Shown: piece by piece, positions 6,344-20,705 of the stretch
How positions within the stretch are numbered: the first letter of the stretch is position 1
How the letters are laid out: each line of letters opens with the position of its first letter
Origin: a virus
IMG/VR virus record: IMGVR_UViG_3300025326_000236
Span: 1 to 20,951 of that record
Length of the DNA: 20,951 bases
Strand: one strand, 5' to 3'
Program-made: the position numbers and the translations under genes
The notes under the pieces: generated by a model
What the model saw: the letters and a program-made list of their open reading frames with translations, nothing else
Told to the model about the DNA's origin: nothing
Databases searched by the model: none

Positions 6344-6360
6344 TGTATCAAATTGATACA
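6344..6360 (-). promoter_or_regulatory. TGTATC-N5-GATACA inverted repeat before the 411-residue virion gene
   Basis: This copy reads TGTATCAATTTGATACA on the minus strand. It lies across the TGA stop of the S74-like gene and 15 bases before the ATG at 6328. The flanks are shared with the other copies: GG before it and CAAG or TAAG after it on the coding strand. Confidence 0.6.
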
Positions 6361-7397
6361 CCACTGAATATCCCGGCCTCTTCCAGCATACCGTAGTTGA
6401 CCAGCTTGTATCCGTCGTCTCTGACGATGATAGCAGCTGGCATGACTTCGGCAACCTCGTCGGCCATCACGCCGAAGCGGACCTTGACTGGATCGAACTT
6501 GTATCGGAAGCTGTAGAAGCCAAGCCCACTCGGTAGCACGTTGAGTAGTACGATGTCCTCTTTGAGCCTTCGATCACTCATCATGCCACCCGCCGCCGCA
6601 GCCTGCCCAGCGCCTCCTGCAAACGCGGTAATAGCCGGGCCGAGCCATCCCTCTGTGGCCTCAGTGCGGAGCGGGATATTCTCAGTCGTCTTCAGCCCAA
6701 GCGCTGCTAGAATCTGCTGCACACGCCGAGCCTTCTCCTCCTGCTGCCGCTGAAATTCGCCATACTCCGCCGTGAGTCGCGTCTGCTCGACTGTGCGCGG
6801 GAGGCTCGCGCCGGTCATCAACTTAAGCAGCGTATCCGCTGAGCCAGCCTCCAACCCAGGCGCTAGCCCGATAGCTTTGAGTATGCGCTCTTGTGCGTCA
6901 CTCTGAGTTTGGTATGCCAGTCCGCTTCGAGCGCCAACCAGCTCCTTGTTCAGCCTCTGAGTGGCCTGTTGCTCGGCAGTCATTCTATCGCTGCCAAACG
7001 CTCCACTTGAGCCATACCGTCGCGTGATCTCTGGTAGAATCATCTCAGTGAAGTCCTGCACCGCAGGATCACGGATACTCTTCTGGAAGAAGTCCTCGAA
7101 GTTGACTGGCGCTCCACCAGTCTTGAGCATCTGCTGAAGCGCTGTCTCGGCCTCCGCGTCGACTCCTGCTCCAGAGGCGCGCTGCATAATCTTCTGCTCA
7201 AGCGCCTCAAGCGAGAGTCCCTCAAGATCACTGAGTCCAGTGGTGAGCTGCCCCCCAAAGGGTGCGCCAGCATCCTTGGCCCCGAGTTCGCCAAGCAGCG
7301 CAGTTAGCGTTGCCTGCTGCTCTGGTGTCATTGATGGGAGTGACTGAACCCAAGCCTTTGGGCTCTCCCCCAGTATCCAGTCTTTAATCGCGATCAT
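6348..7397 (-). CDS. Tail-associated protein with C-terminal S74-type intramolecular chaperone motif
   Basis: The protein has 349 residues. Its start ATG at 7397 is preceded by GAGGTGA, which contains the stop codon of the upstream gene. Residues 274-349 carry SDRRLKEDI (Ser274, Lys279), then a Gly-Phe-Tyr-Ser-Phe-Arg-Tyr block, GVMADEVAEVMP and a final NYGML. This is the layout of the Peptidase_S74 / intramolecular chaperone domain, in which a Ser-Lys dyad cuts the chaperone off folded trimeric fibres and spikes. Here the domain is short, about 76 residues. The N-terminal 270 residues are helical and rich in Gln, Ala and Leu, with no obvious beta-helix or fibre repeats, so the protein does not look like a classic tailspike. 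It lies between the tail nozzle gene and the internal protein genes, which suggests a tail or ejection component. The stop codon falls inside the inverted repeat at 6344-6360. Confidence 0.75.
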   Translation of the reverse strand: MIAIKDWILGESPKAWVQSLPSMTPEQQATLTALLGELGAKDAGAPFGGQLTTGLSDLEGLSLEALEQKIMQRASGAGVDAEAETALQQMLKTGGAPVNFEDFFQKSIRDPAVQDFTEMILPEITRRYGSSGAFGSDRMTAEQQATQRLNKELVGARSGLAYQTQSDAQERILKAIGLAPGLEAGSADTLLKLMTGASLPRTVEQTRLTAEYGEFQRQQEEKARRVQQILAALGLKTTENIPLRTEATEGWLGPAITAFAGGAGQAAAAGGMMSDRRLKEDIVLLNVLPSGLGFYSFRYKFDPVKVRFGVMADEVAEVMPAAIIVRDDGYKLVNYGMLEEAGIFSGVSI

Positions 7398-16121: not shown

Positions 16122-17843
16122 TCATGCCGCCTTACGTGGCCGAGCCAATGTCTGCATGAACTGCTCAGCACTCAGTGGATTCTCCTGAGTGGAACCCTGC
16201 ACACCAGCGGACTGCTGCTGCGCAAGCTGCCCTAGCGTTCTCATCATCGTATCGAACTGTGTGCCATGCAACTCGTGCAGGAGGTATGTGGTGAGGAGCT
16301 GCGGGTCAATAAGAGGGTTGGTCTTCAGCCGTTCGTAGGTCACGAGAGCCTTCTGCATCCGAACCTCCTTCGTCTCTGGCACAGAGCTGTCAGGGTCGAC
16401 TTGAATCTCGTACTGCGCAGCCTTCAGCATGTTTGGCTTGAAGGCTACCCACACTGGTAGTCCATCCGCCCCCGCGACCTGCACGACTATCTCATCGCTC
16501 CAACGATCAAAGATGTCCACATGGATATCCTCGAATAGATCGACTATCAAGTCGGCTACCGCATCTCGGCGCTCATCGACTCGAATCTCGCTGGCTGTCT
16601 GCACTATCCTCGACTCCGTAGCGGTGCGGTCAGCGGAGCCTTCAGCATAGTTACCAAACTGATTACGAGAGAATCCCATGTTTTCTCTGACATCATTCAG
16701 CACCTCATTCCCGGCCATGAACAGGTCCTTTGGAATGTCAGCCATCTGACGGAACTCTATATCGCTCAGCTCACCGTTCACCTTCACAGCCGCTAGAACC
16801 TCTCCGTTGAGTATCTTCTCCAACTCCGTCGTATCGAGGCTCTTGTCCTTATACAGCAGCTTCACGATGGCGAGTCGACGATGCTTCATGGTCAGCGTGC
16901 GAATCTCATTCAGCTCGAGTTGCTGCGGCTCAAGCACTACACTGTCTGGCACTCCCCAACAGACCTCATCATCAGGGTTAAAGACAGTCGTATAGAACGG
17001 AGTGCGACCGTTGACCTGCATAGTGTCGTCACCGTAGAATAGGACCTTCTTATCAGTCTCACCATAGGGAGCGATCACGAAGGCTTTACCAGTTTTCGTA
17101 TCCCTGATCTCGACCAAGTCGATCTCATTCGTCGGTCCTTCGCTCATGTCTGGAAGCGGGCTGGCGCGATACTCGGAGTGATGCGACCCCTTTAGCATTG
17201 CTGTATTCTTGAATCGTGGATCCTCTTGCAGGTCCTCGAGTGGCCTTCGATACCAGCCAGCATACCAGCGGCACTCAAGGAAGTTGCGGCTCCCGGCGGG
17301 GACTATGAAGCCGCCAGTTGGATTCTCGAGAAACCAGGGCATGTTGTCACGGATAGTGGAGTGATACTCTGTCTTCGCCTTAACCCTCATTGTGGAGTCC
17401 TTAGCGAATGGATCACTCCCGCCGGTTATCATATCGGGCGTAGGATGGAACTCCTGGCCAAAGCCCCTCTTTCCAATCCCAGTCCCAAACATCCAGGTAT
17501 CTTGTACAATCTGCTTAACCTGGTTCTTCACACGCATAGTGCGGATCAACTTATTGTCTATGCGCTCGATCAAGCGGGCGAACACCTGCTGCTCAATCCC
17601 GTGCTTGGATGGCTGCACGCTGATACTCGGGTTGCGGAAGTACACTCTCGGAACCACAGTTCGGAGCATACGGAAGAACAAGTTCACGGGGAGTGTGCCC
17701 CTCGGCCAGTACCCTCGATAGTACTGCCGCCAGCGCGCCCAGTCAGCCTCGCGCGCGTACTTCTTCCGGTAGGCAATGCCCTTGCGTATCTGTGTCATCC
17801 ACCAGACTTCATCTGGCCTGCCGTTCACGTAGCCATTTGCCAT
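16122..17843 (-). CDS. Portal protein
   Basis: The 573-residue protein starts at the ATG at 17843, which overlaps the TAA of the upstream gene as TAATG. Portal features are the N-terminal helical region ending W-R-Q-Y-Y-R-G-Y-W, then NLFFRMLRTVVPRVYFRNPSI; a central segment with KQIVQDTWMFGTGIGKRGF; a D-E-V-C-W-G-V-P-D-S block followed by a long helix (ELNEIRTLTMKHRRLAIVKL); RENMGFSRNQFGNYAEGSAD ahead of a TATES helix; and a Gln-rich C-terminus. The portal is the twelve-subunit ring through which DNA is packaged by the terminase and ejected. It lies after terminase and before scaffold, as expected. Confidence 0.85.
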   Translation of the reverse strand: MANGYVNGRPDEVWWMTQIRKGIAYRKKYAREADWARWRQYYRGYWPRGTLPVNLFFRMLRTVVPRVYFRNPSISVQPSKHGIEQQVFARLIERIDNKLIRTMRVKNQVKQIVQDTWMFGTGIGKRGFGQEFHPTPDMITGGSDPFAKDSTMRVKAKTEYHSTIRDNMPWFLENPTGGFIVPAGSRNFLECRWYAGWYRRPLEDLQEDPRFKNTAMLKGSHHSEYRASPLPDMSEGPTNEIDLVEIRDTKTGKAFVIAPYGETDKKVLFYGDDTMQVNGRTPFYTTVFNPDDEVCWGVPDSVVLEPQQLELNEIRTLTMKHRRLAIVKLLYKDKSLDTTELEKILNGEVLAAVKVNGELSDIEFRQMADIPKDLFMAGNEVLNDVRENMGFSRNQFGNYAEGSADRTATESRIVQTASEIRVDERRDAVADLIVDLFEDIHVDIFDRWSDEIVVQVAGADGLPVWVAFKPNMLKAAQYEIQVDPDSSVPETKEVRMQKALVTYERLKTNPLIDPQLLTTYLLHELHGTQFDTMMRTLGQLAQQQSAGVQGSTQENPLSAEQFMQTLARPRKAA

Positions 17844-19084
17844 TAGAGCCACCCCCACGCTTTCAGCTTAGCGAGATCGGCATCGACTCGATTGCCGATG
17901 TCAGTACGATATTGCATGTTAAGAATCTCAAGGTCAGCTATACGCTCATACACGCGCCGGCGCGCTTCGCGTATATCTCTTCCATTTGCGGCTACCTTCG
18001 CCACTACTCCATCACTTCCCGCTAGCACGTAGCCCACCCCATTCTTCATTACGTCACAGGGGAACACTGACCCGCCTGGGCTATCGAGTCCGAGTACTGG
18101 ACTCCCACGAGTGCTCACATCCTGCCTCTGATCCGGGTAAGGAGGACACGTCACCCTGACTGCTATGAGGTAGTCGAAGCTGAACAGCGGCATAGTCTTC
18201 GCCACCCCTGTCGCTACATCGAACAAGAAACTACCAAATGATCCCTTTGTCCCATGCATCAGCGCCTCGATAGCATCATAACCGAATCTCGGCGTGATTT
18301 CAAGGGCATACGCTTGCTTTTCGCTGACTATGCAGTTGATGTCAACTGGGCCCTTATAGGATATCTTCCTCAGCATGGGCTCCAACTTCATCACTGTCTC
18401 TCGCACGAGTTTGTTCGGCTCCTTGAGCGGATAGACCACGTTGCCCATACAGCCTGTCATTGGCCCAACACCTCCCACCGCGAGCCTCTTCTCCTCAAAT
18501 GTATGATTGAAGGGTGTAATCCAATCACTCCCATTGAACCACCCCTCAGTTGAAATCTCAACACCCTTGACTATCTCCTGCACGATGAGTTCTTGATCGG
18601 CTGGAAGAGTGCTGAGTGCCCACTTGTAAGCCTCCTTGCTCTCGCAGCAGGATGTCTTACTCACGTGTAGATTATCGCACGGTTTGATGACGTAACCCTG
18701 CTCATGCGCCCAGTTGAGTGTAGCCGCGCTCTTGGGTGAGTCGAAGTAGTGTGTGACAGGCATGATGATGTCAGCCTTCTTGAATACCTCCACGCACTTA
18801 CGCCGATCCAACTCTAGCATATCGGCGATCTCACTGCAGCCTAGTACTGGCTTCCCGAGTCGTTTGAACAGGGGCGCGTACTGACTAAATCCAACCAGGT
18901 CACATACCACAAGATCAGCCTCCGCAGCATGGGGCCGGAAGGTATCGACTCGGTTGACGATTCCCTTAAGAGCGTGGGAGTACTCGGGTCGCTTGATATA
19001 TAGATCAACACTGTGTCCCTCCTTGATGAGGCGCCAGGCGACACCGGCTCCGTCACCCTCCTTGGAAATCATTAGGACTCTCAC
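17843..19084 (-). CDS. PurD-like ATP-grasp enzyme within the packaging module
   Basis: The 413-residue protein resembles phosphoribosylamine-glycine ligase in layout. An N-terminal nucleotide-fold segment (MRVLMISKEGDGAGVAWRL) is followed by SEIADMLELDRRKCVEVFKK (PurD: AxLExSKxFxK), MPVTHYF, the ATP-grasp YVIKP (131-135), and GPMTGCMGNVVYP (207-219; PurD: GPNTGGMGxxxP). Next come GPVDIN (245-250), LEITPRFGYD (261-270; PurD: EFNxRFGDPE), and the closing YRTDIGNR (392-399; PurD: YRxDIG). The glycine loop of PurD is absent, replaced by CDNLHVSKTS, and the metal-binding Asn after Glu262 is Thr264, so substrate and activity may differ. The start is GTG at 19084, chosen because it preserves the family N-terminus and overlaps TerL as GTGA. 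The stop overlaps the portal start. It may modify a nucleotide, amino acid or virion protein. Confidence 0.75.
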   Translation of the reverse strand: MRVLMISKEGDGAGVAWRLIKEGHSVDLYIKRPEYSHALKGIVNRVDTFRPHAAEADLVVCDLVGFSQYAPLFKRLGKPVLGCSEIADMLELDRRKCVEVFKKADIIMPVTHYFDSPKSAATLNWAHEQGYVIKPCDNLHVSKTSCCESKEAYKWALSTLPADQELIVQEIVKGVEISTEGWFNGSDWITPFNHTFEEKRLAVGGVGPMTGCMGNVVYPLKEPNKLVRETVMKLEPMLRKISYKGPVDINCIVSEKQAYALEITPRFGYDAIEALMHGTKGSFGSFLFDVATGVAKTMPLFSFDYLIAVRVTCPPYPDQRQDVSTRGSPVLGLDSPGGSVFPCDVMKNGVGYVLAGSDGVVAKVAANGRDIREARRRVYERIADLEILNMQYRTDIGNRVDADLAKLKAWGWL

Positions 19085-20679
19085 AGCCAGGGCTCAATTT
19101 GGTTATCTGGGAACGGAAGCCCAGGCTGACCACCCTTGATACTCTCGATCATGGCCTCAAGCGTGAATGGAGAAGCCTCATTGGATTCGAGTGCCGCTGG
19201 TCGGTCAGTAAGCACCAATGTAGCCTTGGTGGAAACGTAGCGGGCCATCGCTGCCGCTATCACCGTATCATCAAAGCAGCCATCAGCCGCGCCGAGCTCT
19301 CCGTTCGGATGCTCAATGAATGATGAGAGCTCAGCTTTGAGAACTTGGCTGTGGATAGTCCACTCATCGCGAAGCGCTTTCCTCAGCAGCCCAATGATGA
19401 AGGGCTTGCTAGTTCCAGTAGTCCGATGTCCTAGATCAACTATACGCTTCACGTCGTCCTTGCCTCGGCCGGCGTTGGCTCGCGGGGTTCGGTAGAGTTT
19501 GATCGAGGGATACTCAAGATCACGCAAGGTGGCAAGCGTGAGTATACCGTGGTTGTTGCTCTCAACGCATACGTAGGCTTCATTGAACATCTTACCAATA
19601 CGGTGAATGTGCCTGCCAAAGACATCAGGGTCAGTTTTGTTGGACATCCACTCGCCTACCTGCTCATTCAGCATGAGGTCGAATATCTCCATCACGCTAG
19701 CGTCGGAACCAACACCACCGCTTACGTCGCCACCAAGTACATACATATGCCCATGCGTCGGATGCCCAGCTAGCACGTGCATATGCTGATCGTGCCGTTT
19801 CCAATTGGCAGTCTCGACAAATCTCACACTCGTAAAGATGCCGCCGCCAGCTGCTTGAAAGCAGTCGTCTAGACATGATGGGTACTCCTGCTTGAACAGT
19901 CGAAGATCGCCCTCAAGTTCATCCTCCAGCACCATTCGGCGCCAAGCGAGCTGCTCTGCATTGAGCCCATAGGCGGCAACAATCTCTGGCTCTTCGATCT
20001 CATCACGTAGGTTCTCCATCAGCGCACGCTGAAGTTCTGGAGTGAGCGTGAGCTTATACTGCGCCTCATCCTGCCACGGCAGGAAGATATGCTTGAACGA
20101 TGAGATTCCCTTCGCCGCTCTCATGCAAGCATTGTGATACCAGTTTCCCATTCCGTTACCAGTGGACTCGATAGAAACGCAGCCGCCGGTTTTCGGAACT
20201 GCTTGTAGCAAGCCAGCCATCAGCGCTGGAGCGTCTGGCCAGTATGCGACCTCTGAGCAGTGGAGGTCAGTGATCGTGTCACCACGACCGAACTTACGAC
20301 TACCAGCGGTGCCAATCCAGAAAACGGAGTTGGTCTTTGGGAACGTAAGTTCATGTTTAGAGTTGTTCCTGATGATTGGCTTCGGCCCTTCCATCGTGTC
20401 GAGGAAGTACTTGACTCGCCCGAACATACGCTCAGTTGCCTCACTCTCATGCGATATGACCACCGCGCCAGTGTTGCGTCTGCCCATGCAGCGGACAGCA
20501 CTTCGAGCGAGGAAGTACGTGGAGATACCACGCTGGCGCGCCTTCGGTATTAGCATCCGAGGATTCCACGCTTCGTCGACTGCGCACTGAGCGCTGTTCA
20601 GACGAAAGGGCACATCTTCCTGTGTCGACTTGTCAATCACATGGAAGAGGGCTTCGATGACTCTGGCTTCTGGTGTCAT
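19081..20679 (-). CDS. terL: Terminase large subunit
   Basis: The packaging motor has an N-terminal ATPase and a C-terminal nuclease. I start at the ATG at 20679 (532 residues). A GTG at 20703 would add MYRIDTQV, encoded by the inverted repeat itself, and is less likely. Numbered from this ATG, the Walker A-like KARQRGIST is at 46-54 and the Walker B-type TDLHCSEVAYW at 137-147, with SIESTGNG near 180 as the coupling motif. The RNase H-like nuclease shows Asp318 (GGDVSGG), Glu373 (VESNNHG) and Asp470/471 (CFDDT). All expected active-site residues are present. The end overlaps the PurD-like gene by four bases. It cuts and packages DNA at the portal. Confidence 0.92.
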   Translation of the reverse strand: MTPEARVIEALFHVIDKSTQEDVPFRLNSAQCAVDEAWNPRMLIPKARQRGISTYFLARSAVRCMGRRNTGAVVISHESEATERMFGRVKYFLDTMEGPKPIIRNNSKHELTFPKTNSVFWIGTAGSRKFGRGDTITDLHCSEVAYWPDAPALMAGLLQAVPKTGGCVSIESTGNGMGNWYHNACMRAAKGISSFKHIFLPWQDEAQYKLTLTPELQRALMENLRDEIEEPEIVAAYGLNAEQLAWRRMVLEDELEGDLRLFKQEYPSCLDDCFQAAGGGIFTSVRFVETANWKRHDQHMHVLAGHPTHGHMYVLGGDVSGGVGSDASVMEIFDLMLNEQVGEWMSNKTDPDVFGRHIHRIGKMFNEAYVCVESNNHGILTLATLRDLEYPSIKLYRTPRANAGRGKDDVKRIVDLGHRTTGTSKPFIIGLLRKALRDEWTIHSQVLKAELSSFIEHPNGELGAADGCFDDTVIAAAMARYVSTKATLVLTDRPAALESNEASPFTLEAMIESIKGGQPGLPFPDNQIEPWL

Positions 20680-20684
20680 CACTT

Positions 20685-20701
20685 GTGTATCAATTCGATA
20701 C
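20685..20701 (-). promoter_or_regulatory. TGTATC-N5-GATACA inverted repeat before terL
   Basis: This copy reads TGTATCGAATTGATACA on the minus strand, six bases before the terL ATG. Its centre is the reverse complement of the centre at 12794-12810. It lies after the TAG of the upstream gene. There is no clear ribosome site between it and terL. Confidence 0.6.
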
Positions 20702-20705
20702 ACCG

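Follow-up and report, generated by a model that had tools for sequence, protein, structure and literature searches.

A PurD-fold ATP-grasp protein, distinct from GAR synthetase, encoded in the late virion modules of phages

A gene situated between the terminase large subunit (terL) and portal genes of a virus (IMG/VR record IMGVR_UViG_3300025326_000236, positions 1 to 20,951; this whole stretch of 20,951 bases is referred to below as the window) encodes a full-length PurD-fold ATP-grasp protein, yet one that is not PurD. It represents a variant of a familiar enzyme type that is both new and distinct, with an unusual path from enzyme to pseudoenzyme, and a search of the accessible literature returned no earlier description of a PurD-like gene beside terminase and portal. 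Our best reading, which we hold with about even confidence, is that of a PurD-derived ATP-grasp ligase other than GAR synthetase, residing in a late virion operon and acting as an amide ligase, whose substrate is probably part of the virion or of its assembly, and having a non-catalytic role that outlasted catalysis.

Results and Discussion

Homology and fold of the window protein

The homology of the window gene to PurD is far above chance. The three landmarks by which the preliminary description had recognized a PurD-like gene of 413 codons (GPMTGCMG, LEITPRFGYD and YRTDIGNR) are present at residues 207-215, 261-271 (LEITPRFGYDA) and 392-399, respectively (Table 1), and the protein matches the purD family TIGR00877 with an E-value of 3.6e-21. 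The score of this match (75.5 bits vs the equivalog cut-off of 288) bears out the earlier view of a PurD-like protein that is not PurD itself. PurD entries of the PDB were matched at E 5e-15 starting from the single sequence and at 1.7e-35 from the family profile, and two Pfam ATP-grasp domains scored above their cut-offs (GARS_A, 32.7 bits with a cut-off of 27; ATP-grasp_3, 29.0 bits with a cut-off of 23.2).

An AlphaFold2 model built with 36 viral sequences (mean pLDDT 93.1) displays the overall three-part PurD fold (N-terminal, ATP-grasp and C-terminal domains). Its top matches among solved structures are all PurD enzymes (GAR synthetase; TIGR00877, PF01071/PF02843), the best being Aquifex aeolicus PurD with ATP (Z 37.2, rmsd 3.0, 392 residues). 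The families below PurD in the structure alignment reflect the shared ATP-grasp fold only; one of them, the 3-methylornithine-lysine ligase PylC (Z 24.4, 18% identity), is clearly more remote than PurD, also by its profile score (TIGR03909, 14.3 bits vs a cut-off of 248). None of the 37 aligned members (0/37) had a match among the 38,880 PHROGs families (E up to 0.01), and nothing close was found among the top matches in predicted viral protein structures (TM at most about 0.49, identity 10-12%). Phage ATP-grasp peptide ligases of the R2K/RimK type, which are likewise phage-encoded and have been proposed to modify proteins (PMC7824862), belong to other ATP-grasp branches (best viral model TM 0.46-0.49, in the same range of identity).

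Table 1. Positions of the PurD-like gene, its neighbours and its sequence motifs in the window.
Feature	Positions	Strand	Remarks
PurD-like ATP-grasp gene	17843..19084	-	413 aa/codons, GTG start; ORF call confirmed exactly
Terminase large subunit (terL)	19081..20703	-	stop codon overlaps the GTG start of the PurD-like gene (GTGA)
Portal protein	16122..17858	-	start overlaps the stop of the PurD-like gene
SKEGDGAG, residues 7-14	19043..19066	-	stands in for the PurD N-terminal GxGGREHA loop
K134 and the loop standing in for PurD DGLAAGKG	18653..18685	-	K134 is the ATP lysine (K143 of Aquifex PurD)
EGWFNG, residues 180-185	18530..18547	-	W182 and G185 conserved across the phage group, in intact versions as well as in full-length dead ones
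FNHTFEEK, residues 192-199	18488..18511	-	stands in for PurD LPxSQDHK
GPMTGCMGN, residues 207-215	18440..18466	-	corresponds to the PurD GPNTGGMG loop
D248xN250 ... E262xT264xR266xGYDA	18272..18343	-	metal/carboxylate end of the active site; [FY]xG ... ExNxRxGDPE in PurD
Zn-ribbon (FmdB-like) gene, 94 aa	15831..16115	-	follows the portal gene; retained by many relatives
Ejection-type virion protein	6348..7397	-	C-terminal Peptidase_S74 intramolecular chaperone domain

Active site and signature of the family

In Aquifex PurD, ATP is bound by K103, K143, E185, E192 and K214, glycine by D212, R287 and E292, and Mg by E100 together with K214 (PMC8880213). The profile alignment places R94, K134, Q169, E176 and K199 (ATP), E197, R266 and A271 (glycine) and E91 (Mg) of the window protein at the equivalent positions, with E197 corresponding to D212 and K199 to the ATP/Mg ligand K214. 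The ATP and Mg residues are thereby either retained or conservatively replaced (K103 to R, E185 to Q), so that the damaged ATP site suspected earlier was not confirmed. The window protein shares with PurD the ATP lysine, the Mg glutamate, the YRxDIG C-terminal motif and the carboxylate arginine (R266), whereas the other two glycine-contacting residues are altered (D212 to Glu, E292 to Ala). Further differences include D248 and N250, located where PurD has [FY] and G ([FY]xG to DxN), the change of ExNxRxGDPE to ExTxRxGYDA and the replacement of both glycine-rich loops. DGLAAGKG has become xxNxxxxKT in the family (KPCDNLHVSKT in the window protein), and the N-terminal domain (residues 1 to about 84) begins with the SKEGDGAG region; the glycine loop reported as missing is indeed absent in its PurD form but has been replaced rather than lost. 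From this replaced loop we infer that the PRA site of PurD would also be gone, an indirect deduction, as no PRA-bound form of PurD is known (PMC8880213).

Twelve residues (E91, R94, K134, Q169, E176, E197, K199, D248, N250, E262, T264 and R266) constitute a signature found in 36/36 aligned viral relatives, in all of which the ATP lysine K134 and K199, as well as the acidic residues E91, E176 and E262, are invariant. The same signature occurs in 48/48 members of a second, freshwater phage group, in the loci L086 and L087, in MW202796, in an archaeal plasmid (Halarchaeum) and in a bacterial chromosomal homologue (genome G152), as well as, with two positions different, in a Roseomonas plasmid protein. 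The active-site pattern of the window protein (ERKQEEK-DN-ETR-YDA) departs from that of four PurDs (EKKEEDK-[FY]G-ENR-DPE; three annotated as PurD and one assigned by homology) at 9 of the 15 positions checked, and none of the four has the signature. The preliminary description had correctly read a metal-ligand Asn as Thr264. An interpretation of this residue as a decayed metal site was rejected: T264 is invariant in the 36 intact relatives and common to the non-phage homologues, and its presence in the signature of all intact relatives marks a separate subfamily, not decay.

The PurD-like paralogues of Halarchaeum, Roseomonas and genome G152 share nearly the whole signature with the phage proteins (including ExTxR, R94, E197, K199 and N250) but reside in non-phage contexts as far as seen; for the two plasmid proteins the identity is 26-31%. 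The Halarchaeum homologue is alone on its plasmid. That of Roseomonas (L047:8001-9275) adjoins genes for a type III polyketide synthase, a methyltransferase, a monooxygenase and an aminotransferase, and could possibly be the amide-forming step of a natural product. A Sphingomonas plasmid homologue (L048:7516-8816) is annotated as two adjacent genes covering its N-terminal and C-terminal parts and is possibly broken. A plasmid-borne paralogue of Robbsia (L049:5752-7044), with a mostly PurD-type signature and located near ectB and a PGM1-related peptide ligase, is another non-purine PurD relative.

Placement in late virion modules

The stop/start overlaps with both neighbours described previously were found as reported. 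The start of the PurD-like gene and the stop of terL share 4 nt (GTGA, 19081-19084), and the stop of the PurD-like gene overlaps the portal start either as TAATG (portal ATG at 17843) or by 16 nt (if the portal starts with the GTG at 17858). A survey of related phages, proposed as a check in the preliminary description, revealed the gene order terL-ligase-portal in every one of the viral loci in which the gene was detected (43/43). Among the junctions compared, those between terL and the ligase gene overlap or abut in 25/35 cases (30/35 at 15 nt or less), and those between the ligase and portal genes in 21/35. With a median pairwise identity of 47% (terL 43%, portal 45%), the ligase is conserved to the same degree as its packaging-gene neighbours.

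In the second phage group (49 loci plus MW202796), the ligase gene of the loci read lies directly 3' of a large virion-module gene and is followed by short genes and a lysozyme-like gene, the lysozyme and virion-module labels being assigned by reading sequences and position. It follows a tail-fibre gene in L087 and a tailspike gene in L086. The subfamily thus resides in late virion modules of two or more phage groups, which differ in their gene order, and the proposed expression with packaging genes holds in the sense that every viral relative with the gene carries it in a packaging/virion operon. No relatives of L087 were found among viral contigs. A search for a cultured relative using the portal gave no match in 50,697 phage records, and the corresponding capsid search gave distant matches only, none of them close.

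Two side observations were made on the related contigs. A phage contig of 12,850 bases that was binned into a Bipolaricaulota MAG (L084/L025) is apparently the same as an IMG/VR contig. Locus L067 (10620-11975) encodes a fusion of a ParB-like nuclease domain with an N6/N4 DNA methylase, and several genomes of the group have related genes.

Loss of the active site, of domains and of the gene

The fate of the gene was assessed in a survey not conditioned on the ligase, in which a search with the major capsid protein (MCP) yielded 33 loci holding a terL-portal junction that were then subjected to a profile search (some contigs are near-copies, and the counts are of loci rather than species). The slot contains an intact ligase in 21 loci, an active-site-less version in 6 and the N-terminal domain only in 3, while 3 have no trace. 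Three of the active-site-less proteins are full-length (L102 and the identical L110/L136 from two metagenomes); the other three are of a marine type, in which the K134-Q169 region is deleted and other ligands are lost, and which totals 13 distinct members in a wider scan. The N-terminal domain alone was detected in L104 (E 1e-7), L116 (3e-5) and L125 (7e-5), and the profile search found no trace of the ligase at the terL-portal junction of L109, L111 and L126. A small, unassigned ORF of about 120-136 aa is located directly after terL in relatives without an intact ligase (L109:1877-2275, L116:2824-3186, L125:3975-4382). No match to the GARS_A domain was obtained elsewhere in five records of the dead lineages.

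A terL+portal+MCP tree, rooted at midpoint, places three changes from the intact state: in the L102/L136 pair, in the marine clade and in a clade of N-domain-only and gene-less loci. Support is 100 for each of the first two clades and for the branch that unites L104, L126, L109, L116 and L125. Whatever the root, the intact state is most likely ancestral, because the signature is common to the non-phage homologues.

In the dead marine clade, which is the part of the dead versions covered by this analysis since synonymous sites are saturated for L102/L110, dN/dS is 0.07-0.09 for nearly all usably diverged pairs (intact pairs 0.06-0.12); this best-sampled of the dead versions is thus, like the intact enzyme, under strong purifying selection as a protein. 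The 12 core ligand positions are kept at none (marine clade), three (L102) and one (L110) of the sites, as compared to 33, 33 and 24 of 62 other positions invariant among intact members; with an active-site set that was partly author-chosen, this amounts to a preferential loss of the active site (Fisher test, 1.5e-4, 9e-4 and 6e-4, respectively). Positions kept in all dead forms include W182, G185, P191, F192 and several in the N-terminal domain, and the EGWFNG segment is a candidate non-catalytic surface. The AlphaFold model of a dead marine version is poor (pLDDT 43.6), so that fold retention in this clade rests on sequence. The dead proteins might have acquired another activity.

Proposed function and alternative explanations

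Judging from conserved residues and the model, the intact protein has most likely remained an enzyme that uses ATP to form an amide from an amino-acid-like carboxylate, with an acceptor that is probably not PRA. It would activate the carboxylate, probably that of an amino acid, as an acyl-phosphate, which would then be joined to an amine, either of a virion or assembly substrate or of a small molecule linked to the virion. A virion or assembly component as the acceptor is suggested by gene placement, and the genomic position as such points to co-expression rather than to action on the virion. A second, non-catalytic role, probably the binding of an assembly partner, is proposed because the slot is still occupied by the protein, or by its N-terminal domain alone, in lineages that lost the active site; such a role is well supported at least in the marine clade. 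Neither role would be indispensable, given the three relatives devoid of any trace of the gene. No partner gene tracking the intact enzyme stood out between 9 intact and 4 dead genomes, in a comparison whose Pfam scan covered a single early region. More tentatively, a captured metabolic ligase may have become a virion-assembly factor that both modifies and binds an assembly or virion protein. In three lineages the binding would have outlived the chemistry, and what works in packaging or portal assembly there would be a pseudoenzyme or no more than the N-terminal domain.

As an alternative, the enzyme could produce a soluble amide (e.g. an amino acid conjugate) that serves infection or counter-defence, with its late position being incidental and the dead versions representing exapted leftovers. 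PurD's own product is a small molecule, and the nearest non-phage homologues include that of Roseomonas, next to polyketide synthase and aminotransferase genes, and the solitary gene of Halarchaeum. Such a ligase seems unlikely to us, however, as the virion-operon placement is strict in two phage groups whose gene orders differ and the shared gene set is without a partner biosynthetic gene.

We regard as rather improbable that the protein is purely a structural or assembly protein in all members, its conserved site serving as an ATP-binding switch only. The full set of ATP, Mg and carboxylate contacts, invariant in 36/36 and 48/48 members, goes beyond the needs of ATP binding, and the substrate-side residues R266 and E197 are kept as well, even though the dead and N-domain-only versions retained in the same slot, with strong purifying selection on the marine one, would agree with a structural role.

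The idea put forward in the preliminary description, that an amino acid is ligated to a nucleotide or a base of the DNA ahead of packaging, gained no support and appears improbable to a still greater degree. The gene does adjoin terL and descends from a nucleotide-pathway enzyme; on the other hand, among the genes scanned no modification pathway was seen, with no DNA hypermodification enzyme except the ParB-methylase fusion in one genome, a gene of the PurA/PurZ family is absent from 15 related genomes, and the second phage group and L086/L087 place the gene with virion, tail or lysis genes instead of terL.

An ordinary PurD boosting purine synthesis as an auxiliary metabolic gene, despite PurD being the closest solved family and the existence of reported viral counterparts (see below), is very improbable in view of the score far under the purD cut-off, the altered glycine-site and other active-site positions in a pattern common to non-purD homologues, the repeated loss of the active site while the protein stays, and the absence of PurA/PurZ and PurM/PurL-type domains (the two families searched) from the 15 related genomes, in line with the earlier judgement that simple purine supply is less likely.

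Implications

Studies of oceans, vents and snow have reported purD or GART among the auxiliary metabolic genes of viruses (PMC11360552, PMC12043954, PMC11097641), and the viral protein clusters of the vent paper among these three include PurD together with the AAA family PF13479. Since PF13479 is also encoded by the ligase-bearing phage group, an overlap is plausible, and the viral purD/GART auxiliary metabolic genes in such surveys may partly belong to the ligase family rather than represent purine enzymes. The signature residues provide a simple test separating this family from purine PurD. If our reading of the family is true, an enzyme of central metabolism would have been turned stepwise into a virus assembly protein, with intact, dead, N-domain-only and lost intermediates all found in one genomic slot.
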